A DNA stretch of 34,998 nt, taken from NCBI GenBank assembly GCA_001800355.1, contig MGVF01000088.1, positions 1-34,998 of the forward strand, written 5' to 3'. Position numbers and translations under genes: made by a program. The notes below the pieces were generated by a model. That model saw nothing but the letters and a program-made list of their open reading frames with translations. It searched no databases and was not told the DNA's origin. This document shows, piece after piece, positions 6,034 to 34,998 of the stretch (the stretch's first letter is position 1; every line of letters starts with the position of its first letter). The DNA is from Elusimicrobia bacterium RIFOXYA2_FULL_50_26 (GTDB taxonomy: Bacteria; Elusimicrobiota; Endomicrobiia; Endomicrobiales; XYA2-FULL-47-53).

Positions 6034-6034
6034 G

Positions 6035-7456: not shown

Positions 7457-7481
7457 TTATCACCTGGATAATTTTGTCGTT

Positions 7482-7564: not shown

Positions 7565-7603
7565 CTCAAACTGCTAAAGAGACAGGATAATTTTAATCAG
7601 CAA

Positions 7604-7644: not shown

Positions 7645-7666
7645 AACTTTACATCTACCACTAAAA

Positions 7667-7954: not shown

Positions 7955-8073
7955 TTGGTAGCTCCTTTAGTAGAATCAGCTTCGAACGTCGTTTTGAGAA
8001 ACAGCATCCATCCAACCGGAAAAAAACGTTCACCTCCTCGCAACCCATATTTGTACGCTGCTATTTAGCTGAC

Positions 8074-8102
8074 ATTATAGTAGATAATTAACAACTTTTC
8101 AA
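8074..8102 (-). promoter_or_regulatory. Sigma-70-type promoter for the 95-aa membrane protein
   Basis: On the minus strand, TTGAAA (8102-8097) and TATAAT (8079-8074) are separated by exactly 17 nt. The -10 is a perfect match and the -35 is 5 of 6. Transcription should start near 8067, giving a leader of about 112 nt before the ATG at 7954. The leader holds an extra AGGAGGTGA at about 8030-8038 with no convincing reading frame behind it. Confidence 0.8.
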
Positions 8103-8116
8103 GCACTTTTCACAAG

Positions 8117-8248
8117 TGTCTCTTCAGCAGTTTGAGGTCATTGCGAGCGAGAGCGAAGCAATCTCGACGTTGCTTCCGATGAAAAGAGAGATTGCCGCGC
8201 CCTTTGGGCTCGCAATGACGACGACAACTTCAAAACGCTAAAGAGACA
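8117..8248 (+). repeat. Palindromic intergenic repeat, copy 3 (subfamily A, complete)
   Basis: Core 8137-8219 (83 bp, GTCATTGCGAGC to GCTCGCAATGAC). The outer arms TGTCTCTTCAGC (8117-8128) and GCTAAAGAGACA (8237-8248) are inverted repeats matching at 11 of 12 positions, which defines the ends of a roughly 132-bp element. It lies between the stop of the second RND gene and the promoter of the 95-aa gene. It is the best-preserved subfamily A copy. Confidence 0.93.
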
Positions 8249-8251
8249 TTT

Positions 8252-11389: not shown

Positions 11390-14300
11390 GGATAAGTCCT
11401 CTTCAATGGCCACTTTATTTTAATGTGAAAACCGGATTTCAGTTTCGGCAGCAGCCTGGCAACGGCCGGTTTAAACTTTTTCAAATTTTTAAGGCGCACG
11501 TGGCTTAATAACCGGATGAAAGCGGGCAAACTATTTCTGATTCCGGCGATCGTGGAAGGCACGATGGTTTTACGGTTAAGGTAAAAACTCTCCATAATCA
11601 GGTAGCTTACCGGTATTACGAACAATGTAAGCAGCGTTCCCGAGAACATGCCGCCCATTACCGTAAGCCCCAGCGAACGCCACATGCCGGCGGCCTCGTC
11701 GCGGCTAAGCACTAAAGGGATAAGCCCGACGATATTATTCAAAGATGTCATAAGTACGGGGCGCAGCCGTTCCCGGCAGGATTCCATTATGGCGCGCAGC
11801 GTTCTTTTTTTCTCGGCGCGTGAAAGGTTTATGCGTTCCACCAGCAGGATGGATGCATTGACTACGGTGCCGCCCAGTATCATCATGCCTATCCATACGC
11901 CAAGGCTTATCGGCTTACGAAGTATAGCAAGCGTGAAGGCCACGCCGATACTTGAGAGCGGCAGCGCAAGCATGATAAGCAAAGGTTGCGAATAGGATTC
12001 ATAAAGCGATGCGAGGTTCAGGTAGATAAGGATAATCGTCAGCACGAGCGCAAGCGAAAAATCTTTCCTGTTCTGCATCGTCTTTTCATAGTCACCGGAA
12101 AAATTGTACGTGTAATCCTTGGGAAAATTTATGCCGGAAAGCACCTGTCTCATTTTACTTACCGCCGCCGTAAGCCCCAGCTTGTTGCGGTTTGCGCTTA
12201 TCTGTATAAACCGTTTTTTGTTCTTGTGCCATATCTCCTGGGCCGTGGTAACCTGGCTTATATCGCCAACCTGGTTTAACGCCACTACCTGTCCGGACGG
12301 CGTTACGAAACGCAAGAAAGGCAGTTCATGGCTTGAGCGCACCGTACCCGGGGTAAGCCGCGCTATAGTTTCGATTTCCTTTCCCTCGCTCCTGTAATGG
12401 GTGGCCACAAGCCCCCGCAACTGGTTGTGAAGCGTATTGGCCATGTAAAGTGTAGTTATGCCGAAAAGCGAAAGGCGATTTTGCGAAGCCACAACATTGA
12501 TTTCAGGTTCATCCTCGCGCATTCGTATTTTTATATCAGAAAGGCCGCGCACCTGCGACAGGCGGCCGGATGCGGCAAACGCTATCTGCTTTAGAACGGC
12601 ATAATCGTAGCCGTAAAAATCAACGTAAACCTCGCGGGAAGCTATATCCTGAGATTCCTGGTAATATATGAAAGCCGGCGAAAATTCGTTGAACCTGGCA
12701 CGGAATTCGTCCATCACTTTTTTCTTATCCTGCTTCATTTTCACTTCTATGAAGGTATGCAGTTTTTCCACACGGGACGATATGCGATCCACGGACGGGT
12801 AAGACAATAGCGTTTTCTCTATTTTTTTCACTATATCGTCGGAACGCTCGATGCGCATACCCGGCGGAAACTGGATGCCGATCCTGAAGGTGTTCGCCTC
12901 GCCGGCCTCGGCAAACTCAGAATCCCTGGTCATGAAAATAAATATCGAAGCTATAAACAATAGTATCGTGCCGGCAATAAACAATCGCTGGCGCCTGAAA
13001 ACCGACTTTAACGCTTTAGTGTACATTTTTTCAATCACCACATACCACCGCGGCGTTTCAAAATCAAAGGCGCCCTTGACGCGCACGCAAAGCGGCGGCA
13101 CAAAAATAAGCGTTCCGAACAGCGAGGCGCACAGCGAAATCCCTATGGCAAGCCCGAAAGGCACGTACATGCGCTTTATTTCCGGGTCAAGAAATACCAA
13201 CGGAAGAAAAACTATTATAGTCGAAAGCGTGGACGCGATAATAGGCATCATCAGTTCGCTTGTCCCCTTTACCACCATTGTTTCCCTGTCCATGCCGGGA
13301 GAACGTTTTGAGTGGTAAGAAAGGTTGCCCATGATTACAATGGCGTTATCCATCAGGTTACCGAGCCCCATGGCAAGCCCGCTCAACGTCATAATATTAA
13401 GGGACAGCCCGCCGAAATACATCAACACCGCCGAAAGCAACAGGCTTATAGGCAGCGTAGTTACAATAATACCGATGGTCTTGAAATTCCTCAGGAAAAA
13501 GAAAAGAATGGCCGTTACAAGTATGGCGCCCTCGAAAACTGAAATCTTCAGCGATGTGATCGCCTTTTGTATGAACTCGGCATCGTTTTTTACAATCGTC
13601 ATCGTCATGTCGGATGCATATTGGTTGCTTAATTCTTCAACCAGCGACGATATTTTATTTCCTACGGTGATGGTATTCGCTTCCGACTCTTTCTGAATGT
13701 ACATGGAAACAACAGGTTTGACGTTAAGCCGGGCGAAAGACGACGGCTCGTAATAGGAATCGCGCACCGTAGCGATATCGCTGAGACGAATAATCGAGCC
13801 TTGCGGCGTAACGCCGATGCCTGTATTCTCTATTTCCTTTACGGCCGAGTACTCGCCCGTGGCGCGCACGATGTATCTTTCCCCCATCTTTTCCACGTTG
13901 CCGGCCGACACCGAGATGTTGTTTACGTTTATCATCTCAACTACGCTCATTATCGGCAGGCTGTAGGCGAGCAGGCGCGCGTTATCAATGTCTATCAGTA
14001 TCTTTCTTTCCTGGCCGCCGCCTATTTCAATATTTGCGACGCCGTTGATGCGCATGATCCTTTCCTTGATCTTCTCCTCTGCGCGCTCGCGCAGCCGCTC
14101 GGGAGACAGGGACTCGGAACTAAGCGCAATAATCAATATGGGGGTGTCGAATTGCTGGAATTTGGCTATGACGGGTTTTTCGACTTCACGCGGCAGGCGA
14201 TGGCGGATTGTTGCAAGTTTTTCGCGCACGTCGAGCGTGGCGAAATTGAGGTTGGTGCCGGGATGGAAACGCAGAACAATAACTGATTCGGATTCACGGG

Positions 14301-14547
14301 AAGCGGACGTTAATTCTTTAAGGCCGTTAACCTCGGAAAATACTTCTTCCATGGGATGGGTAACGCCTTTTTCGACTTCGGTGGCAGGTATGCCGCCGCG
14401 AAGCCGCGTAATGACGCTGATTTCGCCTGTTTCAAGATTGGGATAGAGTTCGAGGGGTATACGCGGAAAGCTGACAACGGCAAAAACTACTATTGCCACG
14501 ACAAGCATCAGTGTGGTGATTGGCCGTTTAATGCCGAGTTCTATCAT
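11386..14547 (-). CDS. RND efflux transporter, first subunit of the operon
   Basis: 1053 aa. It starts MIELGIKRPITTLMLVVAIVV, the standard RND first helix. Helix 4 has LSGLAMGLGNLMDNAIVIMG (one Asp plus Asn), and helices 10-12 include MMILGGTVVNASILLVERI and TVMGGMFSGTLLTLFVIPVSY. The two large loops predict a periplasmic porter/docking domain. The C-terminus carries about 60 extra basic residues after the last helix, rich in Arg and Lys, which the sister gene lacks. It shares family features with the downstream RND protein but is clearly divergent, so this is not a recent duplication. Its ATG overlaps the adaptor stop (ATGA) and its own stop overlaps the next ATG, implying coupled, balanced synthesis. 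Confidence 0.94.
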   Translation of the reverse strand: MIELGIKRPITTLMLVVAIVVFAVVSFPRIPLELYPNLETGEISVITRLRGGIPATEVEKGVTHPMEEVFSEVNGLKELTSASRESESVIVLRFHPGTNLNFATLDVREKLATIRHRLPREVEKPVIAKFQQFDTPILIIALSSESLSPERLRERAEEKIKERIMRINGVANIEIGGGQERKILIDIDNARLLAYSLPIMSVVEMINVNNISVSAGNVEKMGERYIVRATGEYSAVKEIENTGIGVTPQGSIIRLSDIATVRDSYYEPSSFARLNVKPVVSMYIQKESEANTITVGNKISSLVEELSNQYASDMTMTIVKNDAEFIQKAITSLKISVFEGAILVTAILFFFLRNFKTIGIIVTTLPISLLLSAVLMYFGGLSLNIMTLSGLAMGLGNLMDNAIVIMGNLSYHSKRSPGMDRETMVVKGTSELMMPIIASTLSTIIVFLPLVFLDPEIKRMYVPFGLAIGISLCASLFGTLIFVPPLCVRVKGAFDFETPRWYVVIEKMYTKALKSVFRRQRLFIAGTILLFIASIFIFMTRDSEFAEAGEANTFRIGIQFPPGMRIERSDDIVKKIEKTLLSYPSVDRISSRVEKLHTFIEVKMKQDKKKVMDEFRARFNEFSPAFIYYQESQDIASREVYVDFYGYDYAVLKQIAFAASGRLSQVRGLSDIKIRMREDEPEINVVASQNRLSLFGITTLYMANTLHNQLRGLVATHYRSEGKEIETIARLTPGTVRSSHELPFLRFVTPSGQVVALNQVGDISQVTTAQEIWHKNKKRFIQISANRNKLGLTAAVSKMRQVLSGINFPKDYTYNFSGDYEKTMQNRKDFSLALVLTIILIYLNLASLYESYSQPLLIMLALPLSSIGVAFTLAILRKPISLGVWIGMMILGGTVVNASILLVERINLSRAEKKRTLRAIMESCRERLRPVLMTSLNNIVGLIPLVLSRDEAAGMWRSLGLTVMGGMFSGTLLTLFVIPVSYLIMESFYLNRKTIVPSTIAGIRNSLPAFIRLLSHVRLKNLKKFKPAVARLLPKLKSGFHIKIKWPLKRTYP

Positions 14548-15779
14548 CTCACGGTTTCATTGCCGGCTGGATTGACTTCTGTAAACTGCACGGGAAGCCC
14601 GTCGGAAAGCTGCGTCTGCGTTTCAACAACTACAAGTTCGTTCTCATTCAGGCCGTCCTGGACTATAACCGACTTTGAGACGGTCTGGCCTGATGTTATG
14701 GAACGCAGTTCCACCATGCCGCGATTGGGGACGGACGGGTCCGGCTTGACTATCGGGACAAGCCTGGTTTCGTTGCCGAGGCTTATAAGGCTGTCCTGCG
14801 GGATGGTGATAGTATCAGGCATTTCCATCAAAAATATATCTCCGCGGGCAAACATGCCGGAACGAAGCTGGCCGTCGTCGTTGGGTATTTCTATTTTCAC
14901 AATAGTGGTGCGCGTTTTTTCTTTTACCGTCGGCGCTATTTCCCTGACCTTGCCCCAGAAATCCTTGTCCTGGTAAGCATCACAATTTATTTTCACTTTC
15001 ATGCCGATCTTTATCTTTTCCACGTCTTTCTCAGGGACGTCAACCTCAAAATTCACTTCGCCGCCACTGATAAATTTCGCCACCACGTCGTGCGGAGTTA
15101 CAAATTCGCCGGCCTGTATAAGCCGCTCTGCAAGCACGCCGCCCGACGGCGCAAACAGGTTGGTTTTCTCAAGGTTGGACTGCGCAAGCTCAAGCTCCGA
15201 GAGCGCGGCCTCCATGCGTTCCTTCGCGGAGTCGGTCTCATACTTGGCTTCCTCGAATTTAGTCTCCGAGATGGCTTTCATCTTAAACAACTCGCCGTAC
15301 ACCTTCATGCGCTGCGCGGCCGAGAAATACGACGCCTTTTCGCTATTGTACTTGCTTTTTGCGTATGACGCCTTCGATAGCGAATCTTTTGGATCAAGCG
15401 ATGCGATAATAGCGCCCCTTCCTATGCGCGCACCCTCGGAAAAATTATAACGCGCAAGCGTGCCTTCGATTTCAAAACGCATATCGTTTTCAATCGTGCC
15501 TCGAATCGTTCCCATTACCGCGTATTTCTCGGTAAAGTTTTCCTTTTTTATTCTCTGAACGCGCACCTGGGCAACCTGCTCCTGCCGTTCATCACCGCCG
15601 CCTGAAAAAAATAATTTCCGCACAACAAAAAAACCGCCTCCAATAAGTATAATCGCCGTTACAACGATAAAAACAATTTTCCCTACCGGCAATTCAAATT
15701 CTTCGTCGCCCGCAATTCTATACATAATGCGATCATGCCAGTCAAGCAACATATCTTTTATACGGTACCAAAGATTCAA
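14544..15779 (-). CDS. RND periplasmic adaptor (membrane fusion protein)
   Basis: 411 aa from a TTG start. The frame is open further upstream to 15833, but GGAGG sits 8 nt before TTG 15779 and directly after the TolC stop, whereas the upstream ATG would overlap tolC by 40 nt. It has an N-terminal anchor helix at about residues 32-55 (GKIVFIVVTAIILIGGGFF) rather than a lipobox. A beta-barrel/lipoyl half (YAVMGTIRGTIENDMRFEIEG) is followed by a coiled-coil hairpin (about 115-190), the second lipoyl half (TNLFAPSGGVLAERLIQAGE) and membrane-proximal beta domains. It links the TolC channel to the RND pumps encoded on either side. The long cytosolic N-terminal segment is slightly unusual. Confidence 0.92.
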   Translation of the reverse strand: MNLWYRIKDMLLDWHDRIMYRIAGDEEFELPVGKIVFIVVTAIILIGGGFFVVRKLFFSGGGDERQEQVAQVRVQRIKKENFTEKYAVMGTIRGTIENDMRFEIEGTLARYNFSEGARIGRGAIIASLDPKDSLSKASYAKSKYNSEKASYFSAAQRMKVYGELFKMKAISETKFEEAKYETDSAKERMEAALSELELAQSNLEKTNLFAPSGGVLAERLIQAGEFVTPHDVVAKFISGGEVNFEVDVPEKDVEKIKIGMKVKINCDAYQDKDFWGKVREIAPTVKEKTRTTIVKIEIPNDDGQLRSGMFARGDIFLMEMPDTITIPQDSLISLGNETRLVPIVKPDPSVPNRGMVELRSITSGQTVSKSVIVQDGLNENELVVVETQTQLSDGLPVQFTEVNPAGNETVR

Positions 15780-15793
15780 GGTATTATCCTCCG

Positions 15794-17200
15794 TCAGCGT
15801 AATTGCAACATCGTAAGGCGTTCCATCTCGCATACAGCCAGGTAGTTTGTAGCAAGAGACCTCATGTAAGACATCACCGTTTCAGCATATTTGTAAACAC
15901 CATCCATAACTTCAAGGGTTGATATCTCGTATAATTCGTTGCGCTTGCGCATAACTTCAAGCTTCCGCTCGCGCAGGCGTATCTCGTCTTTCGTAGTGCG
16001 CGCATTCCACAGCGACTGCTGGTACTCGTTATAAAACTTATCGAATTCATAGATAGCCCTGTTAAGCGAATCACGGTATTCTATCTTTGAAGTCATTATG
16101 CCTATAGCGCTTTCCTTCTGCTCTACAAAATACCCCAGATCGTCGAATAATGACAGTTTTATTTCATTGGTTGTGTTATCAATGCGACGGGAGAGATCAA
16201 TAATTTCCTGGGGATTTGCATAATCCTTGGCGCTGCTTACTTCAAGCGAGTTGCCCCAAAGCCCCCATGAAACGCGGCCTGAAATGCTCCATGCTGTCGT
16301 CAGGCTGAGCGGCTGCGTAACAAACACTTCGCCGCTCTGGCCGTAATAACCCTCGGCGTATAGTTTCGGCAGTGTTTTTGCGCTTGTAATTTTCTTTTTC
16401 TGTTCGTTCATTTCTATCATGTTCAGGTTTGTGCGCGCATCCATGTTGTTTGTCGTAACAAAACGGCGCGCCTCTTCATGCGTGTACGAAATATCTTCCG
16501 GCGGCGCAAGGGAGCCTATGTCAAACGGGGCGGCAATTTCATCAAGGGCTTTTATGTCAACGGTGAATAATAGTTTCTTTTCCGAAAGCTCGGCGTTCAT
16601 TTTCGCCGAACGGTACATGTTTTCCACCTTGTCCCTGAAGTTTCTTCCTTCCTGCAGGTCAAGGTCCGAAATCGCCTTAACGTTGAATTCCAACTGGCTT
16701 TTCTGCTGCAGGCGCTGGATATCGTCAAACGTATCCTTAAGCCGTTTAAGTTCGGAGCGCGCCGCAAGGAATTCGTAATAGGCTGTTTTTATTCGGTAAT
16801 ACAGATCTTGCCTTGTCTTGGTAAGGTTTAACTTTGCATTTTCGCGCAACAGCTTATCGTAACGGTATGACGCCCTTAGCCTTCCGCCGTCGTACAACGG
16901 CTGGAGGGCGCGCACCCCAAGCTCTTCCGACTGGTACTCATCGGACTGAACCTCCCCGTTTTCAAGCGTTCTAAGCGCCTTGCCCCGCGCCGTTTTTCTC
17001 TGCAGGGAGATGCCGGGTAGGAACGCGCGCCCGGAACGCGTAATGCGCAGGGAAGCCGCATTAACCTGCTCTTTTGCGGCCAGCAGCTTTTTATCCCTGT
17101 TTTCGCCAACTTCCAGGCAGGCTTTCAGGAATTGATCACCGGCAAAAACATTACTGCAAAATAACACTATGATCGCAAACAGGGAGATGGTTTTACGCAT
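15794..17200 (-). CDS. TolC-family outer membrane efflux protein
   Basis: 468 aa. Signal peptide MRKTISLFAIIVLFCSNVFA is cleaved near residue 20. The mature part has the two-fold alpha-helical hairpin organisation of TolC-like channels: long heptad-rich segments at about 30-60 and 125-215, repeated at about 245-290 and 345-445. Stretches such as ARSELKRLKDTFDDIQRLQQ and SQLEFNVKAISDLDLQEGRN are typical of the family. It would form the outer-membrane exit duct. ATG 17200 has GAGG 6 nt upstream. It is the first gene of the efflux operon, and 14 nt separate its stop from the adaptor start. Confidence 0.92.
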   Translation of the reverse strand: MRKTISLFAIIVLFCSNVFAGDQFLKACLEVGENRDKKLLAAKEQVNAASLRITRSGRAFLPGISLQRKTARGKALRTLENGEVQSDEYQSEELGVRALQPLYDGGRLRASYRYDKLLRENAKLNLTKTRQDLYYRIKTAYYEFLAARSELKRLKDTFDDIQRLQQKSQLEFNVKAISDLDLQEGRNFRDKVENMYRSAKMNAELSEKKLLFTVDIKALDEIAAPFDIGSLAPPEDISYTHEEARRFVTTNNMDARTNLNMIEMNEQKKKITSAKTLPKLYAEGYYGQSGEVFVTQPLSLTTAWSISGRVSWGLWGNSLEVSSAKDYANPQEIIDLSRRIDNTTNEIKLSLFDDLGYFVEQKESAIGIMTSKIEYRDSLNRAIYEFDKFYNEYQQSLWNARTTKDEIRLRERKLEVMRKRNELYEISTLEVMDGVYKYAETVMSYMRSLATNYLAVCEMERLTMLQLR

Positions 17201-17242
17201 TGCAGCCTCATTGTAAATTTATTAACTGATGTTACACAGCGT

Positions 17243-17325
17243 GTCATTGCGAGAAGCTTGGCGACGAAGCAATCTCGTCGTTTTGATACGAAACAGCAAG
17301 ATTGCTTCGCTTCGCTCGCAATGAC
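17243..17325 (+). repeat. Palindromic intergenic repeat, copy 4 (subfamily B)
   Basis: 83-bp core from GTCATTGCGAG to CTCGCAATGAC, with the inner sequence GCAATCTCGTCGTTTTGATAC shared with the copy at 26261 but not with copies 1-3. The left arm AACTGATGTTACACAG matches the left arm of copy 5; the right outer arm is not preserved. It lies within the 222-bp lipoprotein-tolC gap, where it would be part of the tolC leader RNA. Confidence 0.92.
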
Positions 17326-17384
17326 CTCAAGACACCGTGAGCGATCCCTGCAAAAATTAAAACCGCGCCGGAACGTGTTTTATA

Positions 17385-17413
17385 AGTATTGTTGATATGG
17401 CTTTTGTTTTCAA
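17385..17413 (-). promoter_or_regulatory. Possible promoter for the efflux operon
   Basis: Minus-strand TTGAAA (17413-17408), 17-nt spacer, AATACT (17390-17385; 4 of 6 to the -10 consensus). It is placed just after the lipoprotein stop and ahead of tolC, with the repeat copy inside the resulting leader of about 180 nt. The -10 match is weak, so this is a candidate only. Confidence 0.3.
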
Positions 17414-17422
17414 TAGTATGTT

Positions 17423-18193
17423 TTATTTTAATTTCTCGGGTTGCGCTATCGGAATACTGATTACCTGGCGGCCGCTGTTGTTGATTATGCTAATCTCGCT
17501 AAATTCAAAAAAACGGTATTTGTGCGCTATCTTCGCGCTCCATTCCATTATCGTCGCCCTTATGAACTCCATGGACATATCGCTGAGGGTTTCGCTATCT
17601 GTTTTCAGCACAAGCTTGTTACCGCTAAGAGAGTCTATCTCCAGACGCGCACCGATGGCAGCGCTGACGAACGGATTCGAAACCGTCAGCCAGTTGAATT
17701 TGGAAACGATCAGCCGCGCCACGAATTCACGAAGGTCAATATCCCTGAAAGTTTCCCCTTCACCGGTATTCTTTAAGCCCAGATCGTAAATAATGCGGTC
17801 CTCAAAATCGCCGCGTGAAATCTTCTGGTAGAAATACCACTTAAGGTCGTCAAGACGCTGTACGATGGAAAAATGTGTTTTCCAGCCGGGCAGCTCAACT
17901 ATTGTAACAAGATACTCAATTTTCGCATCACTGCTTAACGACACCCTGGTTATGGCAAGGTGGACTTTTTGCAGCTTTTCAAGCACTTCTTTCTTTATAT
18001 TAGCCTCGGAGCTTACCAGCCCGGGCAGCGCCACCTTCAAATAAAATGTTTTCCCCACAAGCGCCGCATGGCTTTCAAGTTTACACTCCTTTTTTACTAT
18101 GCCCTCAACGGATTGGGTTAATTTTTCCCTCGGATAAGAAGGCCTGGTGCAGGAAGAAAGCGACAGGGCTATGACAAAGATTAAAAATCGCAT
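17423..18193 (-). CDS. Predicted lipoprotein of unknown function
   Basis: 256 aa. The N-terminus MRFLIFVIALSLSSC is a short lipoprotein signal with lipobox LSSC (Cys15). The residue after Cys is Thr, not Asp, so outer-membrane sorting is plausible. The rest is a mixed alpha/beta soluble domain with no family recognised; hydrophobic strands such as IEYLVTIVELPGW alternate with charged helices. The ATG follows the FtsH-like stop after one nucleotide, without a ribosome-binding site, so it is probably translated by coupling. This tight link suggests it serves the protease, for example as an envelope-side partner or substrate, but that is inference. Confidence 0.85.
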   Translation of the reverse strand: MRFLIFVIALSLSSCTRPSYPREKLTQSVEGIVKKECKLESHAALVGKTFYLKVALPGLVSSEANIKKEVLEKLQKVHLAITRVSLSSDAKIEYLVTIVELPGWKTHFSIVQRLDDLKWYFYQKISRGDFEDRIIYDLGLKNTGEGETFRDIDLREFVARLIVSKFNWLTVSNPFVSAAIGARLEIDSLSGNKLVLKTDSETLSDMSMEFIRATIMEWSAKIAHKYRFFEFSEISIINNSGRQVISIPIAQPEKLK

Positions 18194-18194
18194 T

Positions 18195-19847
18195 TTATTG
18201 TGGGGGCATGCTGCGGGGCGCCATGGCAGGCGCCTCCAACTGGGCGGGGTTGGCGCCTTGCTTGCAAGACTTGAAGATAGCGTCTATTTCATCATAGTCG
18301 AGCTCTTCTTTCTTCAAAAGTTCCTGGGCAAACGCCTCAACTACCTGCCAGTTTGCTTTCAGGAAATCATTTACATTTACAAGGCAGTTGTTTATTATAG
18401 CTATACTTTCCTGGTTTAATTTCTCTTTGAGTTCATTTGATATCTCGTTCTGGGGAATGCGCGAAAAGTCGCCGATAAGCATACTATTACCCGCCATACC
18501 CATCTGCCACACCATGGCATGGGCTATGTGCGTTGCGCCCTGGAAATCAGACACCACGCCCGTGGACGTAGTGTTATATTTAATTTTTTCCGCCGCATAA
18601 CCGGCCAGCATAACTTTTATGTCAGCAAGCAGTTTCTCGCGGTTGGCGGTGTGCAACTCCTCACGCGGGTGATGGCTTACCATGCCGAGGGATGCCTTGC
18701 GCGGTATTATGGACGCCTTGAACACGTCATCGCTGGGATGCAGGAAATACAATACCGCGGTATGCCCCGCCTCGTGGTATGCGGTCTGCTCTTTCTCCTG
18801 GGGAGTGATGTCCAGGCGGAAGACCATTCCAAGCTCAATGCGGTCCATGGCTTCGGAAATATCGTTGTACTCAACCATGTCTCTCGTTTTGCGGGTTGCT
18901 ATAAGCGCGGCTTCCTGCAGGATGTTGGCAATGTCCGCCGGTGATTTGGACACTGTTTTCTTCGCCAGGCGCCCGAGATCAATTTCAGCGGAATGTTTTA
19001 CCTTTTTAAGATAAAACTCAAAAAGGTCGTTTCGTTCCTTCAGGTTGGGGCGGGCAATATAAATCTTGCGATCAAACCTTCCGGGGCGTAGCAGAGCTTT
19101 GTCCAGGACGTCTTCAGAAGCATTGGTTGCGCCTATAACCACCACGTTTTCCCTGCTGGATTCAAGGCCGTCCATTTCAACCAGAAGCTGATTCTGAGTG
19201 CTGTTTGTTTCCTCGCCGCCGCCCATAAATGAGAACGTGCGCCCGCGCCCGATAACCTCGACTTCGTCAATAAATATAATACAGGCACCGTGCGCATACG
19301 CAAGCTGCCGCGCACGCGAAAATAATTTGCGTACCCGGCTTGCGCCCACGCCCACGAAAATCTCGACGAATTCACTGCCGGATGCGGAAACGAACGGGAT
19401 CCCGGCCTCGGTGGCAATGGCTTTTGCAAGCAGAGTTTTTCCGCAGCCCGGGGGGCCTATGAAAAGAAGGCCTTTAATTATCCTCCCGCCGATTTTCTTA
19501 ATACGGGAGCGGTCCTTCAAAAGCTGGACAACTTCCATCGCTTCCTTCTTGGCGGATTCAAGCCCGATAACGTCTTTAAAACGAACTTTGATATCCTCCG
19601 GCCTTATGCGGTTTTTTTTCATGGAAGAGAAACCGCCGCGGAAGACTGTCATATAAAGGTAAACGAATATTACCGCGTTAAGACCGGTCAGGAGAAGCTG
19701 CAACGGGATAGTGGCAAGCGTCATATTGCGGTAAAAAGATTCGAGCGTGCTGAGGCCGATAATTGTTAGAATTATGAGCGCCAGGCAAACGAATATAATT
19801 ACCAGCTTGAGCCAGTGATTGCTGAAAAACACCTTCAATTTTCTCAT
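18195..19847 (-). CDS. ftsH: FtsH-family AAA+ membrane metalloprotease lacking the periplasmic domain
   Basis: 550 aa, shorter than typical FtsH (about 610-650). Helices at about 12-33 and 46-68 are separated by only about a dozen residues, so the usual periplasmic domain is missing. The AAA+ module has Walker A GPPGCGKT (131-138), the pore motif FVEIFVGVGASRVR, Walker B IIFIDEVEVIG and arginine fingers ALLRPGRFDRK. The peptidase has zinc site HEAGH (358-362) and a third ligand Asp434 in SDFQGAT, so it looks catalytically complete. The linker ends in a short proline-rich tail. GGAG lies 7 nt before the ATG. It lies between a stand-alone receiver and a lipoprotein gene. It may be a specialised paralogue rather than the housekeeping FtsH. 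Confidence 0.93.
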   Translation of the reverse strand: MRKLKVFFSNHWLKLVIIFVCLALIILTIIGLSTLESFYRNMTLATIPLQLLLTGLNAVIFVYLYMTVFRGGFSSMKKNRIRPEDIKVRFKDVIGLESAKKEAMEVVQLLKDRSRIKKIGGRIIKGLLFIGPPGCGKTLLAKAIATEAGIPFVSASGSEFVEIFVGVGASRVRKLFSRARQLAYAHGACIIFIDEVEVIGRGRTFSFMGGGEETNSTQNQLLVEMDGLESSRENVVVIGATNASEDVLDKALLRPGRFDRKIYIARPNLKERNDLFEFYLKKVKHSAEIDLGRLAKKTVSKSPADIANILQEAALIATRKTRDMVEYNDISEAMDRIELGMVFRLDITPQEKEQTAYHEAGHTAVLYFLHPSDDVFKASIIPRKASLGMVSHHPREELHTANREKLLADIKVMLAGYAAEKIKYNTTSTGVVSDFQGATHIAHAMVWQMGMAGNSMLIGDFSRIPQNEISNELKEKLNQESIAIINNCLVNVNDFLKANWQVVEAFAQELLKKEELDYDEIDAIFKSCKQGANPAQLEAPAMAPRSMPPQ

Positions 19848-19850
19848 TAA

Positions 19851-20294
19851 TTACTCCATTACGACCTTGCTCACTTTATCGCGCAGATCGTCAACGTCGA
19901 ACGGTTTTGTTATTGCAAAACAAGCGCCGTGCCTTATGGCATCCTTTATCCGGTGGTGATCCCCTGAAACTACTATTATCCTGTTGCCGTATTTGTCGGG
20001 GTATAGGCTCATAACGTCTTTGATGAAATCAATGCCCGTAGAACCATTACTTGAATTAAGGTTAATGTCGCTTAGAATGGCGCTGTACTGTTCCATCTCA
20101 AGCATGCGCATGGCATGGCCGATGTCCGAAACACCGTGAACATCGCCTATGACCGCTATCTCGCGCAGGACTTCTGAAATCAAATCAACCATCCGCCTGT
20201 CGTCGTCGAGAACAAGCACTTTCTTTTTTGCCGAGCAATCTTTCTTCTCAACTGCCTGTTTATGTTTCATAACTATATCAATTTTCCTTTCCAT
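19851..20294 (-). CDS. Stand-alone receiver-domain response regulator
   Basis: About 147 aa, a single CheY-like receiver without output domain. Acidic residues are in VLVLDDDRRM, the phosphoacceptor is Asp76 in AILSDINLNSSNG, followed by IIVVSGDHH (Ser in the Thr/Ser position) and AITKPFDVDDL (conserved Lys). The start is uncertain: TTG 20300, ATG 20294 and ATG 20270 are all in frame and none has an ideal ribosome-binding site; residues before about 27 are basic and outside the fold. The stop is 3 nt from the FtsH ATG, so it leads that operon. No kinase is adjacent, so it would take phosphate from elsewhere, possibly the kinase at 6035-7456. Confidence 0.9.
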   Translation of the reverse strand: MERKIDIVMKHKQAVEKKDCSAKKKVLVLDDDRRMVDLISEVLREIAVIGDVHGVSDIGHAMRMLEMEQYSAILSDINLNSSNGSTGIDFIKDVMSLYPDKYGNRIIVVSGDHHRIKDAIRHGACFAITKPFDVDDLRDKVSKVVME

Positions 20295-20340
20295 TATCAA
20301 GAGTATATCTTATTCATTAGTCATTTATAAAAAACGGCCA

Positions 20341-26412: not shown

Positions 26413-29400
26413 TTATCCCTGGGTTCGCAATGTTTCGACGAGAGCGGGAAGTATAATATCCCGGGCAGCTTGTGCGGGCTTGCGGACGCGGCGTTCCGCA
26501 GCGAGCGCGAACATTCGCGCGGATTCGGCCAGCGCCCAGCCAGCCGTTTTGTCTTGATTGCCCACTATGTCCGGCAGGGTGCCTGTTTTCTGAAGGGCGT
26601 CAATCTGCGGCTGCATTATCGAACGTATCTCGGCAAGCACGTACTCTGCCTTATTGTCAGCATCGGCGTGACGGACGGACGCAACAGCTTTGACAAATAA
26701 TACCATCGGCACCAACGCCTTAAGTCCGGATGTTACAGGCAACGCTTCGTAAGCGGCTCTTGCCTTTTCGATACTTAATGAACCAGACTTGCCGGTGATC
26801 ACATTAATTATTTCCCTGAAATAACTGCCGCTGATGTCCTCGCGTTTATTCAACGATGTCGCTATATCGCCACTAATTTTATACATAGCACTGTCTTTGG
26901 CCGTTTTAACGGCATCGTCGAACGTGCCATGGACGTGAGCGGCCAGCAGTATGGCGCGGAAACGCCTGTTATCCTGTTCACTGACAAATTTTTCCAACGC
27001 GGAGTTCTTTTCGTAATACCTCGCCTCAACTACGTGTTCCATGGCTCCGCGAACCAGGTTGAACAGCTCAACATGGCTTCTTACAATATCAGCGGATGAA
27101 GCATTGGCGGGCATTCTGTTTTTCAGCAACTCAACCTGCCTGGCCAGGGCAACCCAGTTTCTGTTTTCCACTACATCCGTAAGGCGCCCCAACATGCGCA
27201 AAGTTTCATCAAACAGGCGGCCGTTTGCCAATCCCGCTGCCAGGGGGGCGAGTTCATCATCGTTGCATTGCTGGATATAACGCCCGGCTTCAAGCACCGC
27301 GCCAAGCCCGCGACCGCTGAAGGTTTGTACAGTTTGTCCGTTTCCGTCAACCAATGTAATATCGCGCGACTTGTCAAACCATGTGAATTCGGCGGCATTC
27401 ACTTTTTCAGGCGCGACCTTGTAGCCTTTTTGACAGGCCAACTCACCCACCTCTGCAATACTCTTAGGCCTGAGCGCACGCACGCTCGTCAATTCGATTA
27501 TAAAATCGCGGTAGACATTGTGACTGGCGTGGCCGCTGGCCAGGTCTCTGAACTGGGCATCATTTGCCGCGACGCCGCTGGCAAGATCGGGCATGGCAAT
27601 AACGCTTACGTTTTTAGAGGCGTCAACAAAACCTTCTATATTTTTTTTGAATTCTTCGACGTCATCTCCGGCAATGACCGTTTTGCCTTCTTCTATGTAC
27701 ATCATGCGTACAACGTTTTCCCCGGCAACCTGCGACGGGGCAATTGTTCCGTAAGGAACCCTGTCAACAAAAGCAATATCCAGCCGGTCGGCCAGCCCAT
27801 GCGCCTGCCGGGCAAACAATGGCGATGGGATAATGCCGACTGTGTCTTTCCCGAGCTTGCCGGCCAGGCGCTCTATCCACTGTTCAGGCAGCGTTGATCG
27901 CGCAGACAGGTCAAGGTAAACCCTGCTGAATCCAAGTTTAATCCATGCATCTATCTTGTCCTCTAATGCTCCGAGGTTTGCATCATCGTTTACAGTCACG
28001 TTAAACGTAACCTTGACCTTGTCTTTAACCTGCGAATGGCGCAGAACCTCTTTGAATTGGAATTTCGCGGTTTCTTCGAGGAAAGCACCGAGGTCGCCTG
28101 TATACCCGCTATGCTTGTAAGCCATATGCGCTTTGACAGCATCCCTTTCATCACGCTCACTTATGTTTTCTTCCATATGGGCGGCTTCGGTGACTATAAC
28201 ATGGCGCCGATCAACACCGTCAACCCTTGACCAGTCAATGTAGCGCACCAGCTTGTCAAATACGTTGTCGAGCATTACGGTATCCACGTTCATTTCAGAC
28301 ATCTTTATTATAAATGCCACAAGATCAGTAATCTTTCCTTCACCCAGGTCTTGTGGCCTTCCCACCTGGCGAAGCTGGCTGATATTCTTGTAAACCGCAA
28401 CGCCATAAGGCAGTTTAACTTCACCACCCGCCTTTTCTTTCCTTAGCGGCAGGTAATCTTTCCATATTGCTTCTTTTACGCTTTCTTCAACGTCGCCGCT
28501 AAAATCTATGAGGTTTTCGGCGCGATGCAACGGCTCACGTTTTTTCAAGTTATCGGCGGCACGCACAATGTCGTATTTGCTGAATACATCCTCGCTTAAG
28601 CGCTCCACATCGCCGGATGATCTAAAGCGCACTTCAAAAATAGTTTCTGCCAGCAACTGGTGATTTTTTGCAATATCCTCATTGGAAATAAGCCCGGCAA
28701 AACCGTTGCACTGCAGGATGTCGGGATTTATTTCGCCGGCGTACGGGAGTCCCATTTCACCCAGCTTCTCTTTAACGGTGAGTTCCCCATCTTTAAGCAT
28801 TACACCTTCGCGCATGGAGTTCATTATAACAAGCACTGCCCCGCGAAGCGCCGCATCGCGGTTTGCACCCCGTGGCAACCTGACCTGCAACCTGATAGCG
28901 GAAGCGCCGTTGTCAGCCGGCTCTGCTTTGGCATAGACAGGCACGGTAACGGTTTCACCATTTTCCAGGGTAATATTCTCATCATAAAGATATATGCCCT
29001 CGGGATCAACGCCGTCAGCAAGCACGGCCAGGTGCAAGGCGTTCATACCGATGGCGGCATACGCTTTTAATTCATCAATATCCGCATCGCCTATGCTCCA
29101 GACGGTTTTGCCGGCAAGCTCGTGGATGCCCATCTTATCCAGCCAACTGCGGCCGGCAAAGGCTTCGGCAACGCTTTCGGCAACATTGTTTACGGCCTTA
29201 TGCGGCATTACGGACTCTGCCGCCACGCTTGCCACGGCGGCGGGCTCTACATCCTTAATGGCGCCGGCGATAGACTGCACCGTGATCAACGACCCGCCGC
29301 CCTCTGCCTTAATGCGTAGCATGGCGATAAGATCCTTAATCAGGCTGTTAAATCTGGCATTCTTAAACTCACGCGGCTCGTCGCTGGCCTCAAGCTGCTC

Positions 29401-32400
29401 AAACCAGGCCGCCAACTGATCGCAGCACGTGCGCCCCTGGAAAAGAGAGTTCATGAACATGCCGTAATCGCTAAGGTTATTATCGGCATGACGGTTCCAG
29501 TGATGATCATTGGCGACATCACCGTGGTTACGCTCAATCCGCTGCTTTAGTTCATAGAAACCTTCCAACCCATGCGATATGCCAAATCCATTAAAATCAA
29601 ACGTGTAATGCGGGTTTGACAGAATGGTGTTGGCCACGCTCGCAGTTACGCTTCCTTCCACGCTCCCGATCAGGTTGCGGTCGTATGAAGCGCCCTCGTC
29701 AAGCAGAACACCTTCAAGCCGTTCTACAAGGCCGGACATAAACTCCGTGAAACGCCGGTCAACCTTAACGGGTGTATTCTGGGGGTCATTCCTGCTTTCC
29801 CTGAGAGTATCGAACCAACGCGTAACTTCGGCCAATGCCCCGGGGTTGGATTCAAACATGTATTCAACGTACCAGCGGAATGAAGATTTTTCCCCTTTCC
29901 TGTCTTCCAGATGGTGCCTGCTCCATAAACCGATGTTTGAATCTATTCCGGCTTCACCATTCTCTATGACAATTTTCCTGCGGATGAAACCTGCAAGGCC
30001 GGGTTTTGCAATACCATTTCCGTTAAAACTAAAACAGCTGCCGTCATACAAAAGTTTTTTAATAGATTCTTTGCTCGCACCCGTTTTCGTGGCGTTGACA
30101 ATCGCAGCCATTGCCTTTTCATCTTCCCCGCGCTGCTTCTTTTGGCGCGCGAGTATACGCTGATATTCCGTCAAATATGAGGCGGAGGTATTCATGTAAT
30201 CCAATATACGGCTGAAACGCACGGATGTTGCGCAATGCATGTAAAAATCGCTGCGGCGATCATTCCACACGCTTACCGCTTCCCTGATTGCATCAAGGTA
30301 ACCGTTTGGCGTATCGCTGTGCGCTATTACAGTATTCCCGCGCCCGGGACGCTTCCAGTCAACAGGCCTGCCCTGGGCCATGATAGTGCCTTCCGGATAT
30401 ACAGGGCTTATGACAAGCGCTCCGTTAGCGGAAAAAGGCACCTCGGTATATTCCGACGCGCCGGTATCCCTGGTAGATGGCAGGATGCCCATATCGCAAG
30501 CGGCAAGCATTGCCAGCTTTTGCTCCTGTACTGCACGATCAACAAAAATAAATTTCCCGGCATATCCTTTTGCATTCAGTTCGCTTTCCCAAAGCATAAG
30601 GCGTTTTGCCGTGGCCTTGCTTTCGTCAAACCCCTGCACGTTGCCAAAATATAGTATTTGAACGCCATCCTTGAGCATTTGTTCGATGTTTTCATAGGTG
30701 AATGCGGTCGTTAAACCTGTTTTCTCATCTACAAGGCGGCCATAGTATCCCAGAGTTATTTTTTCCGTGTCAACATTGGCGTAGCCCCCAATCTCTATCA
30801 TAGCGCGATTAATAATTTCATCATCTACTACACCATCGCGTTGTAATTTCTCCAGGAACGAAAGTATCTTGAAATCGTTAGCCCCTTTTACCTTTAATGA
30901 ATCCACTACCGAGCTGATTTTCTTATCCCTGAATTTAATAAGATTCTCTTCCAACCCGTCATTTCGCGCTTCGCGCACAATTGAATTGAATATTCCATCA
31001 TCCAAACGCTTTTCCCGGTTAATCATATCATAGTTCATGAGTATGCCAACTGCCGTGTTGTCAGCCCTTACGTCGTCAGCAATTGAGGCAAGCGCCTCAG
31101 ATATGGTTTTACCTCTAAGATTATTAAGAGTTATGGATAACTCAATACCGTTTGCAGTCATCATCATGGAATCATTGAAGTATTGTTTACAAACAGGCTT
31201 GGAAACCTGGATTTGTTCACTTGAAGGCCGATATAAATCTACTGTTTTTCCATATTTTTCTTTCAATGCTTTATGAAAATACTTGGCCATCAATTTCAAA
31301 TCCGTGCCATTGGTAATACCTGTCAGATGAGTCCAGCCTTTGTCAATATGCCTCATCAGGCCGCCATGAATTTTGCTTACGCCATTTGCCCAGCCGGCAC
31401 GCACGGCGGCGCTTGTCCAGTCCCAGAAACCTATACGTTTGAACATTGACCAGTATTTCTTGTCAATTCCCAGCCACCGCAAATATTTTTTTACATCTTC
31501 TTCAGTACGTGTACGACGGTTGCCTATGGTATGCGTGGTTTCATATGACAAAATGCCACTGACAATGGGATCATCAGGATACATACTTGCAAGCAATGTA
31601 TGCAGCGGGCCATTCTGTCCGTCGTTACCATGCACTATGGCCGGGTTAAAGTCCGCACCCCATTCCTTATGACGCTTAACCTCAAGATCATAAATAAGCC
31701 TTGCTATCGGCTTGTTTATACCACCGGTTGACTCTTCCCACGACGGGTTTTTAGAACTTACTTCGTCATTTACCTTGCCGTAATCGGTTTCACGGTAGTT
31801 ATACGTCATCCGCGTATAGAAGCTGTCTCCATCTTGTTCAACTACGCCGCGGTAGCCGGATCTCTGAACATCTTTTACAAAATGCTTGGGCATTCCGGTA
31901 TCACTGTCCTGCCCCACAAAAACTTCACAAAATATTTTTTCTTCACTGCCATCGTCATTAAATACACTGACATCGTATCCCATCAATTTTTTCAACCCTT
32001 TGACTCCCTCATGCTCATAGTCTAGAGGCGTGGGATTGCCACTGGCATCAAGCTTATCGCGGCGAAGCATGTATTTAGGCTCTATGGTGGTGAAACCGCA
32101 GCGAATACCCATATCATTTGCCATCTTTATAAGTTCGTACATTCCCTTTGCATGGTATGTCATCACGGGACCCAAGCCGCCGACCCAGAAAGTATTTTCA
32201 GCAGCAACGTAATATATCATGCTGCCTTCCAGCAGAGGCGCCTGCCGCTTAACCCAGTTGCGCAAATAGTTATTAAGGTATTTCTTTATATCTCGTTCGA
32301 ACCCGTCTCTATCAGCCGCTTCCATAAGCATAATTCTATCGAAAAGCACGGCATAAGCCTTATCTTTAAGAAACACGTTCTCGTTTGCTATAAGTATGCG

Positions 32401-34998
32401 TAAAAAGTCTGTCTCCTGCTCTTTGGTAAGTTCCGTAACCGACTGCAGAACCGGCCATGCGGATTCAACGGGGTTAAGCAACGATTCACTCTCAACCTGT
32501 TCGGAACAAATCCTCATGAGACTGATAAGCGAATCCGGCGAGAAAGTACCGTCGCCTGTTATACATGCTTTTAACCGATCTGATATAAATTCCTGATCAT
32601 TATCACGAATCGCCCGGGATACATTCGCAACAACATTCTCGTCGGCTTCCAACACATTGGCGAGAAGACTAGGCTCCCGAGGGGCGGCAACCATGTCAAC
32701 GGCGGCTTGTTGGACGGCGGGGATGGCGGCTGCCGACGCTGCCAGGAGGCGCATTCCGTTTATCGCATCCCTGGAACCATTTGTGTCGTAATGCAGGAGG
32801 AAGGCGTAAATGCCTTCGGGCTTAAGGTCCCCGCTTTCGATATATTCAAGGATTATGTTTTCCAATGCCGGCGTAAGATTGTCCGGCAGGTTTTTTACTA
32901 GTTTTCCAAATGTTTTATGGCGGGATGACCTGGTACGTAGAACTTTGCGGTGCGCCTCACGTATCATTTTGCGCACCTGCAACTCGAAAATCAATTCGTC
33001 AATTCCTGCATCCGTAAACCCGGCAGCCTCGCTCAGGCCTGGCGCGGACATTTCGCCGGACTGTTCGCCTGAATACAATTTTTCAATTTTAGTTATATGG
33101 GTAAGGATGTCAACGATCTCAATTCCTTTTTCATGCAATGCGTCCATCACTTTGCCTAGAACATAATCGGAAATAGAGTTGTCTTTTAACTTGTCCGTTA
33201 TAAGTGAACGGATATAAGCTTTATCGTAAAGCTTGCCGGAACTTTCTTTTATTGACGGCAGCGGCAATGAAGTTGCGTAATCCAGAAGCAGCTTCTGACT
33301 GGCAAGCATTTTCTCAAGCTCGGTTAGCGATTCCGGCGGCTGACTTGCAAGATGGCGGATATAGTTATGGAAATTTTCCTGCTTGCGGCCGCCCCTTTTG
33401 CTTATGTGCATCTTGCCAAGGTAACCGGAAAACAGTGCGTAAACACCGTTAGGTTCAACCGTGCCGCGTGGCTTGTTTAATGCCATGAACTCGAATACTT
33501 CATGCCGGGCAAGAAGGGTGAAGAACTCATCGGCGTTTAATCCTTCGGGCAGGCCGTCTTTTTCAATTTTATCTATAAAATAGGCCGATGGGCTGAAGAA
33601 AATAAATTCCGCCTCTCCACGGCCGGCAACCCGTCTTGTTGTATTACCAATCCCCATGGTCGCAAGCAGGCACCGTTCTTTGTGGGCTGAAAGGATACTT
33701 CTATTTAAAATTGTAAATACAATCTCCGCATCATTGCGAACGCCAAGCTCATGGTAGTATTTTCCTTTCAGAATCTCGAGTTCTCTGCGTAAAATGCGTG
33801 TCCATTCCGCATCAAGGGGGCTTTCATTTGCAAGGCTGCCGCTTCCGATACTAAGCCGCATGACATCCAGCGCAGGTTGTGAAAGGTACTCAGCCAGGAA
33901 TGGAAAGCTTGATCTTAATTGACTGACAAGCTCGTTTATGCCGTTCCCCATGCCGACTATCCGATTCACACGCTTGTTCTGAACCTCTGTCCCGGCAGTC
34001 TGCCGCATTTCCCTGCGCTTGAGATAATCAGCGCGGAAGGCATTAATATCGTCAATTTTCACAAATGACGCGCCGTTAACGGTAACGATGTATTTATCTC
34101 CGACAACAGCGCGCCAAAATTCAAGCGCATCCGCATCGGCAATTTTGCTGGAGCGCAACCTGACGATTTGTTCCGGATAATTATAGTTAATCACAGCCTC
34201 TTCAAACAGTTTCCGCCCAAGCCCGGAATAGAGGTATTCGGCCTCGGTAAAAATAACGTCTATTTCCAGGTAATCCCCGGCTTTATCGCTATCCTTATAT
34301 ATTTGGACGTACCCTAAAGTATTTTCGTCAGTATCAATAGCTTCGAAACCGTATCTGCCTGCGACCGTATCAACAGGCCCCGGAACATTGATTTTTATAG
34401 CGTTAATATCAAACTCAAGATAGAAAATAAGTTCGCTGTCTTGCGGGAGAAATGGCCTTAGCGTTTCGGCGATGCCGGCGCGGGTAAGCCCTGCTTCCTT
34501 GATAAGTTTCGTCAGCATAAGCTTGTCATGCCGCAGCGATTCCGTATCCATCCCCGCCTCGTGGCGAAGCTCATGTGCGATGCCGGCGACAAAAAGCGCT
34601 TTCGCGGCATCTTTATCATTGGCCGCAATTTCAAGGAATGATTTATTTATGCCGATTAGTCCGTTTTGGCGGTGGTCTTCAAAGAGGTATTTAGAGGAAT
34701 TTTTTTCAAGGAGGGTAAGGAGAATGTTTTTATCTGTAATCTTACTCACATCAACAAGCCCCTCGGCAGCAAGCGCCGCCATCGCCTTTGAAATAAGCGC
34801 ACCCAACTCGCCGTCGGACACGCCCATGGCCAGCTTCAACTCATTCTTATCTTCCGTCGTAAGCTTTATCAAATCGTCATAGTGAACACCATTAACGTCA
34901 ACCGGCACACCCTGCGCCACAGAATTTTTGACCGACTTAACCTGTTCCGCGTCCCCCGCACTAAATTCACTACGATTCCCCTGGAGTTTCATCAAGCT
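26413..34998 (-). CDS. Giant multidomain protein with GNAT-like, zincin-like and glycogen-synthase-like modules (5' end beyond window)
   Basis: At least 2860 aa. No stop lies between residue 1 as numbered here (TTG 34995) and the window edge, and there is no signal peptide, so the true N-terminus is probably outside. Modules: HExxH motif IAHELRHEAG (HELRH 141-145); GNAT-like segment about 200-310 (YSGLGRKLFEEAV at 256-268); second zincin-like motif RHEVFEFMALN (HEVFE 498-502); helical region 620-920; GT-B glycosyltransferase about 925-1610 resembling glycogen/starch synthase (WVGGLGPVMTYHAKG with GGLG at 939-942, IVHGNDGQN near 1121, YYGRLVDEKTGL near 1417, PSTRDTGASEYTE at 1506-1518, then NGALVIS). 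A module is repeated at about 1655 and 1800. The C-terminal 950 residues are unrecognised. Substrate unknown; a glucan is a guess. Confidence 0.85.
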   Translation of the reverse strand, partial: SLMKLQGNRSEFSAGDAEQVKSVKNSVAQGVPVDVNGVHYDDLIKLTTEDKNELKLAMGVSDGELGALISKAMAALAAEGLVDVSKITDKNILLTLLEKNSSKYLFEDHRQNGLIGINKSFLEIAANDKDAAKALFVAGIAHELRHEAGMDTESLRHDKLMLTKLIKEAGLTRAGIAETLRPFLPQDSELIFYLEFDINAIKINVPGPVDTVAGRYGFEAIDTDENTLGYVQIYKDSDKAGDYLEIDVIFTEAEYLYSGLGRKLFEEAVINYNYPEQIVRLRSSKIADADALEFWRAVVGDKYIVTVNGASFVKIDDINAFRADYLKRREMRQTAGTEVQNKRVNRIVGMGNGINELVSQLRSSFPFLAEYLSQPALDVMRLSIGSGSLANESPLDAEWTRILRRELEILKGKYYHELGVRNDAEIVFTILNRSILSAHKERCLLATMGIGNTTRRVAGRGEAEFIFFSPSAYFIDKIEKDGLPEGLNADEFFTLLARHEVFEFMALNKPRGTVEPNGVYALFSGYLGKMHISKRGGRKQENFHNYIRHLASQPPESLTELEKMLASQKLLLDYATSLPLPSIKESSGKLYDKAYIRSLITDKLKDNSISDYVLGKVMDALHEKGIEIVDILTHITKIEKLYSGEQSGEMSAPGLSEAAGFTDAGIDELIFELQVRKMIREAHRKVLRTRSSRHKTFGKLVKNLPDNLTPALENIILEYIESGDLKPEGIYAFLLHYDTNGSRDAINGMRLLAASAAAIPAVQQAAVDMVAAPREPSLLANVLEADENVVANVSRAIRDNDQEFISDRLKACITGDGTFSPDSLISLMRICSEQVESESLLNPVESAWPVLQSVTELTKEQETDFLRILIANENVFLKDKAYAVLFDRIMLMEAADRDGFERDIKKYLNNYLRNWVKRQAPLLEGSMIYYVAAENTFWVGGLGPVMTYHAKGMYELIKMANDMGIRCGFTTIEPKYMLRRDKLDASGNPTPLDYEHEGVKGLKKLMGYDVSVFNDDGSEEKIFCEVFVGQDSDTGMPKHFVKDVQRSGYRGVVEQDGDSFYTRMTYNYRETDYGKVNDEVSSKNPSWEESTGGINKPIARLIYDLEVKRHKEWGADFNPAIVHGNDGQNGPLHTLLASMYPDDPIVSGILSYETTHTIGNRRTRTEEDVKKYLRWLGIDKKYWSMFKRIGFWDWTSAAVRAGWANGVSKIHGGLMRHIDKGWTHLTGITNGTDLKLMAKYFHKALKEKYGKTVDLYRPSSEQIQVSKPVCKQYFNDSMMMTANGIELSITLNNLRGKTISEALASIADDVRADNTAVGILMNYDMINREKRLDDGIFNSIVREARNDGLEENLIKFRDKKISSVVDSLKVKGANDFKILSFLEKLQRDGVVDDEIINRAMIEIGGYANVDTEKITLGYYGRLVDEKTGLTTAFTYENIEQMLKDGVQILYFGNVQGFDESKATAKRLMLWESELNAKGYAGKFIFVDRAVQEQKLAMLAACDMGILPSTRDTGASEYTEVPFSANGALVISPVYPEGTIMAQGRPVDWKRPGRGNTVIAHSDTPNGYLDAIREAVSVWNDRRSDFYMHCATSVRFSRILDYMNTSASYLTEYQRILARQKKQRGEDEKAMAAIVNATKTGASKESIKKLLYDGSCFSFNGNGIAKPGLAGFIRRKIVIENGEAGIDSNIGLWSRHHLEDRKGEKSSFRWYVEYMFESNPGALAEVTRWFDTLRESRNDPQNTPVKVDRRFTEFMSGLVERLEGVLLDEGASYDRNLIGSVEGSVTASVANTILSNPHYTFDFNGFGISHGLEGFYELKQRIERNHGDVANDHHWNRHADNNLSDYGMFMNSLFQGRTCCDQLAAWFEQLEASDEPREFKNARFNSLIKDLIAMLRIKAEGGGSLITVQSIAGAIKDVEPAAVASVAAESVMPHKAVNNVAESVAEAFAGRSWLDKMGIHELAGKTVWSIGDADIDELKAYAAIGMNALHLAVLADGVDPEGIYLYDENITLENGETVTVPVYAKAEPADNGASAIRLQVRLPRGANRDAALRGAVLVIMNSMREGVMLKDGELTVKEKLGEMGLPYAGEINPDILQCNGFAGLISNEDIAKNHQLLAETIFEVRFRSSGDVERLSEDVFSKYDIVRAADNLKKREPLHRAENLIDFSGDVEESVKEAIWKDYLPLRKEKAGGEVKLPYGVAVYKNISQLRQVGRPQDLGEGKITDLVAFIIKMSEMNVDTVMLDNVFDKLVRYIDWSRVDGVDRRHVIVTEAAHMEENISERDERDAVKAHMAYKHSGYTGDLGAFLEETAKFQFKEVLRHSQVKDKVKVTFNVTVNDDANLGALEDKIDAWIKLGFSRVYLDLSARSTLPEQWIERLAGKLGKDTVGIIPSPLFARQAHGLADRLDIAFVDRVPYGTIAPSQVAGENVVRMMYIEEGKTVIAGDDVEEFKKNIEGFVDASKNVSVIAMPDLASGVAANDAQFRDLASGHASHNVYRDFIIELTSVRALRPKSIAEVGELACQKGYKVAPEKVNAAEFTWFDKSRDITLVDGNGQTVQTFSGRGLGAVLEAGRYIQQCNDDELAPLAAGLANGRLFDETLRMLGRLTDVVENRNWVALARQVELLKNRMPANASSADIVRSHVELFNLVRGAMEHVVEARYYEKNSALEKFVSEQDNRRFRAILLAAHVHGTFDDAVKTAKDSAMYKISGDIATSLNKREDISGSYFREIINVITGKSGSLSIEKARAAYEALPVTSGLKALVPMVLFVKAVASVRHADADNKAEYVLAEIRSIMQPQIDALQKTGTLPDIVGNQDKTAGWALAESARMFALAAERRVRKPAQAARDIILPALVETLRTQG

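Follow-up and report, generated by a model that had tools for sequence, protein, structure and literature searches.

A GT5-derived GT-B module with a putative Glu/Gly exchange in its catalytic loop inside a giant protein of Endomicrobiales

The closest described systems to the locus analysed here are the GT5 glycogen synthases (GlgA), the GT35 glycogen phosphorylases and the giant proteins of Omnitrophota and Elusimicrobiota. In E. coli glycogen synthase, Glu9, Leu19 and Asp137 are known as acceptor residues, and Lys15, Gly18, His161, Asn246, Arg300, Lys305, Glu377 and Thr382 as donor residues (PMC6210743; PMC7137382). Giant Omnitrophota and Elusimicrobiota proteins have been published, with carbohydrate-related domains proposed for them (PMC10066038; PMC11573180), and are also treated in the preprint of West-Roberts et al., as cited in PMC12057145. 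The protein described here resembles them in its very long ORF, few annotated domains, transmembrane segments in its relatives and carbohydrate-related domains, whereas its GT5-like module, the exchange in the loop of that module and an associated N-terminal module of about 530 amino acids are not found in PMC10066038, PMC11573180 and PMC12057145. Giant proteins are already known, but a GT5-derived module with a rearranged catalytic loop appears to be undescribed.

The window, meaning the whole stretch of DNA that was analysed, is an entire contig (C88) of 34,998 bp, on which a single frame of 2861 codons ends at a stop at 26413 and is open at the contig end. The frame of at least 2860 residues in the original prediction is thereby borne out, and the motifs quoted in it are all present and in order, namely WVGGLG (residues 938-943), HGNDGQN (1123-1129), GRLVDEKTG (1420-1428) and PSTRDTG (1507-1513), with NGAL starting at 1525 and HELRH at 142. 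Since the window is the complete contig, the N-terminus of the giant protein is lost at its end; 8.6 kb of the ORF are visible, as compared to a giant-ORF criterion of more than 20 kb. A genome of the same family (G001) contains a complete ORF of 8801 residues (26.4 kb), whose residues ~5847-8780 are matched piecewise and in order by the window protein, and both proteins stop 21 residues past the last aligned block. Behind the G001 ORF lie a response regulator, an FtsH-like protease, a 256-aa ORF, OEP, HlyD, two RND genes and a histidine kinase, followed by a GGDEF regulator, a response regulator and a sigma factor, and the window shows the identical gene order after its giant frame and an additional 1951-aa ORF (Table 1). 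From this C-terminal collinearity and synteny, the full protein is probably near 8,800 residues in length, with about 5,850 N-terminal ones lying off the contig, so that the predicted size holds as a minimum but not as a total of about 2,860.

Database searches with the whole window protein gave little. No Pfam or NCBIfam family was found above cut-off, the sole meaningful weak match being Glyco_transf_5 (E 0.012); NCBIfam and single-sequence PDB searches returned nothing, an initial scan of the genome contigs revealed no relatives and a plasmid search no matches. The isolated, below-cut-off Pfam matches to Sec8_N, ADH_zinc_N and EF-hand_6 were dismissed as chance, and a cyclic beta-1,2-glucan synthase, considered for its size of ~2800 aa, was rejected, the only GH94 match of the genome being on another contig. 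The hydrophobicity profile of the window protein contains nothing strongly hydrophobic and one borderline stretch.

The kinship of the glycosyltransferase module became evident when its relatives were included. An alignment of six members compared by hhalign with five Endomicrobiales GlgA sequences gave a probability of 98.6 (E 1e-15, 450 columns), spanning the full length of GlgA at about 20% identity, far beyond the probability of 0.6 obtained with a control, an unrelated module of similar depth from the same proteins. The six-member profile is also collinear with starch synthase 4, as a weak match. PF08323 (Glyco_transf_5; cut-off 22.7 bits) is matched by five of the six members, with nearly the whole profile covered by the G005 module (46.1 bits, 6.8e-12) and 34.3 bits for that of G001; the window sequence alone reaches a below-cut-off 15.8-18.1 bits. 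An AlphaFold model of residues 880-1700, built from six sequences only (pLDDT 64, pTM 0.61), retrieved starch and glycogen synthases first in Foldseek (E 9.6e-15, target TM 0.6-0.7), the best matches being 6gne, 6gnf, 1rzu and 3vue, with a target TM of 0.69 for 2qzs, and GT35 glycogen phosphorylases as a second set. A GT-B fold and GT5 relatedness are thus confirmed for residues ~921-1622, as was predicted from motif order and spacing, and the finding that would have contradicted that prediction, the lack of such a fold, was not made. A ~115-residue insertion between the two lobes is specific to the window member.

A GT35 phosphorylase-like module, with glucose-1-phosphate as donor instead of a nucleotide sugar, is improbable. 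Its appeal lies in the GT-B fold, in the second Foldseek set and in the possible availability of glucose-1-phosphate beyond the cytoplasm; the spacing within the loop as far as NGAL is presumably also compatible with GT35. However, GT5 ranks first by Foldseek and by profile matches, PF00343 matches none of the six members, and the loop before NGAL, where we take the PLP-binding lysine of GT35 to be located, has P1521 and offers no position for that lysine.

Among 341 genomes of the phylum, the module occurs in six, namely G000 (the window genome), G001, G003, G005, G044 and G204, relatives having initially been found only within the same order. The G005 contig (C19; 41,718 bp) and JAFGGC010000008.1, from an Endomicrobiales (Elusimicrobiota) MAG, have the same sequence in the compared portion; the window genome is assigned to the order of G005, and an Omnitrophota host, which the giant ORFs had suggested, was rejected on this identity. 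The host ORFs have at least 1848 residues in every case and up to 10,958, several ending at contig edges. In a tree whose long branches make the deeper splits uncertain, the six modules group together as a clade (99/98) and GlgA stands separately (99/99), and a recent GlgA duplication as their origin was rejected on this separation. GT5 proteins occur in 295 of the 341 genomes, and the window genome has its own canonical GlgA of 484 aa on another contig (G000:C6). That an ordinary intracellular glycogen synthase, to which the module is akin, was fused by chance or mis-assembly is hence scarcely credible, given the separate GlgA, the clade of its own, the occurrence within very large ORFs in six genomes, where two of the contigs are 114 and 432 kb long, and a frame that in G001 is conserved as far as the same C-terminus. 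Other Endomicrobiales giant ORFs similarly carry GT-B modules, one GT5-like in a 5435-aa ORF (G001:C6; L058 9894-12605) and one GT35-like, without a lysine at the PLP position, in a 7386-aa ORF (G007:C63; L059 10570-12714), but these keep the EPGG (the usual loop) and EASG loops, respectively, and fall outside the clade of the window module. Separately, the 10,958-aa GT-bearing ORF of G003:C1 (L028 1-9999, minus strand) contains an adenosine-deaminase-like stretch above the Pfam cut-off (E 8e-7).

Compared with GlgA, the module has the GGL, HxxD, THN/THT, NG and R-x4-K elements in collinear order. At an identity of 25-42% among the six sequences, D1126, H1156, N1230, R1421, K1426 and E1519 are all invariant, the first five being equivalent in the alignment to Asp137, His161, Asn246, Arg300 and Lys305; the Arg and Lys of GRLVDEKTG, named as donor-site residues in the original prediction, thereby line up with donor residues of E. 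coli glycogen synthase. A Glu (E934) is retained ahead of the GGL loop, while as a difference from GlgA the KxGGL lysine (Lys15) is missing in all six members.

The second difference concerns the catalytic loop. As hhalign leaves a gap there, its register was taken from the family alignment, in which the six loops align gap-free (pattern T-[GE]-A-x-[EG]-[YG]-T-E). The four Endomicrobiales members have GAxE, reading T-G-A-S-E-Y-T-E in the window, T-G-A-A-E-Y-T-E in G005, T-G-A-N-E-Y-T-E in G001 and T-G-A-N-E-F-W-E in G003, whereas ExxG is found in G044 (T-E-A-N-G-Y-T-E) and G204 (T-E-A-M-G-G-T-E), both outside the class. In the latter two, the spacing from the Glu to the Gly ending the next helix equals that of GlgA (E-P-C-G-L-S-Q-M-I-A-L-A-Y-G). 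The ungapped alignment together with this spacing indicates that the catalytic Glu and the loop Gly are exchanged in place in the Endomicrobiales members, ExxG having become GAxE. The model cannot settle the loop geometry, since its pLDDT is below 50 at residues 1511-1519. The original prediction of a changed catalytic loop was correct in substance but mis-registered in proposing an Asp for the Glu: D1511 was discarded as its counterpart, since the four close members differ there (D, G, G and R) and the loops align without a gap, and instead G1513 occupies the Glu place and E1516 the Gly place. Because two defining GT5 sites (the KxGGL lysine and the Glu377/Gly380 ExxG) differ from the canonical state, the module should, as judged from its sequence, be called GT5-derived rather than a GT5 glycogen synthase. 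We infer that the exchanged pair may alter the chemistry, and with Gly at the catalytic Glu position of the Endomicrobiales clade, catalysis via the GT5 mechanism is doubtful.

Table 1. Features of the window, with coordinates, strand and basis of assignment
Feature	Coordinates	Strand	Basis
C-terminal part of giant multidomain ORF, 5'-truncated	26413..34998	-	collinear with G001 8801-aa ORF, conserved neighbourhood
HExxH module (HELRHEAG 142-149; residues ~81-170), putative zinc peptidase-like	34489..34758	-	conservation
GNAT-like segment (residues ~214-300), weak	34099..34359	-	sub-cut-off Pfam, Foldseek
GT5-like GT-B glycosyltransferase module (residues ~921-1622)	30133..32238	-	hhalign, Foldseek, PF08323, alignment
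WVGGLG, acceptor-side GGL loop, KxGGL Lys absent	32170..32187	-	alignment
HGNDGQN; D1126 = Asp137 of E. coli glycogen synthase	31612..31632	-	alignment, invariant 6/6
TTHTIGN; H1156 = His161 of E. coli glycogen synthase	31519..31539	-	alignment, invariant 6/6
GRLVDEKTG; R1421/K1426 = Arg300/Lys305 (donor phosphate)	30715..30741	-	alignment, invariant 6/6
Catalytic-loop segment PSTRDTGASEYTEVPFSANG; G1513, E1516 at places of Glu377, Gly380	30421..30480	-	family alignment
First copy of the repeated module, immediately after the GT module; bounds approximate	29674..30021	-	
Repeated module, copy 2	29311..29628	-	E 5.3e-15
C-terminal region (residues 1951-2861)	26416..29148	-	common to ends of G001 8801-aa ORF, partly G002 1611-aa ORF
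Next ORF, 1951 aa	20341..26196	-	first ~530 residues = N-terminal signal-peptide module
Conserved neighbourhood	3547..20300	-	response regulator, FtsH-like AAA+M41 protease, 256-aa ORF, OEP, HlyD, two RND pumps
Conserved neighbourhood, rest	within 3547..20300	-	histidine kinase, GGDEF regulator, response regulator, sigma factor

Around the glycosyltransferase, the remaining modules foreseen from the motifs fared unequally. Repetition of the repeated module is confirmed by its second copy, and the HELRH motif, taken initially as protease-like, belongs to a conserved HExxH module, in which H142, E143, H146 and G149 are invariant in four aligned copies; ten further genomes have the HExxH in large ORFs. 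This conservation supports a putative zinc site and is the basis of the protease likeness, while Foldseek and Pfam gave zero matches for the module. For the GNAT-like motif, YSGLGRK is present at 257-263, and three GNAT Pfam models fall on residues 214-300 with E 0.007-0.016, but all are below cut-off; Foldseek with a low-confidence model of the segment returned mostly GNATs (E about 0.006-0.1), so that a GNAT is plausible, though not proven. The motifs HEVFEFMALN and HEVAEYLALN occur in the window at 33484-33504 (minus strand), in the 1951-aa ORF (P0002) at residues ~1070 (window ~22980) and in G005:C16, and may possibly mark a second metal-site module.

The location of the protein has to be read from relatives, as the N-terminus of the window copy lies off the contig. 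In the G001 ORF, a hydrophobic signal and a ~530-residue module come first, LysM and HEAT domains are present and about 15 segments are hydrophobic, which suggests that the giant protein is exported and envelope-associated. The same ~530-residue module with a signal peptide begins the 1951-aa ORF of the window (24517-26196, minus strand) as well as the GT-bearing giant ORFs of relatives, and starts giant ORFs of up to 12,027 aa. It is found in 69 of the 341 genomes of the phylum, often in four or more copies where present, and has invariant QDLHC...E.Q and GGFH motifs; it is also present in L030, L033, L026, L029, L031 and L064-L066, and no convincing relatives of it were found in Pfam or the PDB. 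Among the neighbours, an FtsH-like AAA+M41 protease, a 149-aa response regulator and the 256-aa ORF (18195-20300 and 17423-18193, minus strand) are linked to giant ORFs, the protease and the 256-aa ORF adjoining a 5939-aa ORF in G005 (L031) as well; the 256-aa ORF has no Pfam match.

Export, if it occurs, bears directly on function. Nucleotide sugars are absent outside the cytoplasm, which counts against an exported transferase and in favour of a pseudoenzyme, that is, a GT-B module serving as a non-catalytic alpha-glucan- or nucleotide-binding scaffold in a giant adhesin or surface protein. That the Endomicrobiales clade has lost both the KxGGL lysine and the catalytic Glu would also fit such a scaffold, and published giant proteins have been interpreted as adhesins (PMC10066038). 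Still, a scaffold need not keep H1156, N1230, R1421, K1426, D1126 and E1519 invariant at so low an identity, and the members outside the class retain the canonical ExxG, for which reasons we hold the pseudoenzyme to be a possible explanation, short of an even chance.

The reading that we prefer, at a probability of roughly 0.5, is that the GT5-derived module still binds and, slowly or in a re-tuned manner, transfers sugar as part of an exported giant protein; an active or re-tuned transferase as such has about even odds. According to this proposal, an ancient GT5-derived GT-B module, distinct from the glycogen synthase of the cell, would have been kept in a giant modular Endomicrobiales protein and would retain the binding of an activated sugar (diphosphate or phosphate) and of an alpha-glucan-like acceptor. 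Transfer would be slow or use a different donor via the rearranged loop, in which E1516 and E1519 may substitute for the missing catalytic Glu. The whole protein would carry an N-terminal signal peptide when synthesised and function outside the cytoplasm, where the module and its neighbours could bind or remodel glycan belonging either to the cell envelope or to a partner cell. The full combination, a retaining GT-B enzyme with its catalytic Glu shifted by three residues (ExxG to GxxE) in an exported ~8,800-residue protein acting outside the cytoplasm of its producer, whether on that cell's envelope or on or inside a partner cell, is, taken as a whole, unlikely.

Giant proteins abound in Elusimicrobiota and Omnitrophota and their modules are mostly unannotated, and with the present analysis one of them gains a defined enzyme ancestry, a residue-level hypothesis and a module of tractable size. 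The putatively exchanged Glu/Gly pair belongs to a loop with otherwise very high conservation among retaining GT-B enzymes. If the module is active, it would represent an unusual catalytic-loop solution, and the donor source of a seemingly exported glycosyltransferase would become a question in the biology of these bacteria.
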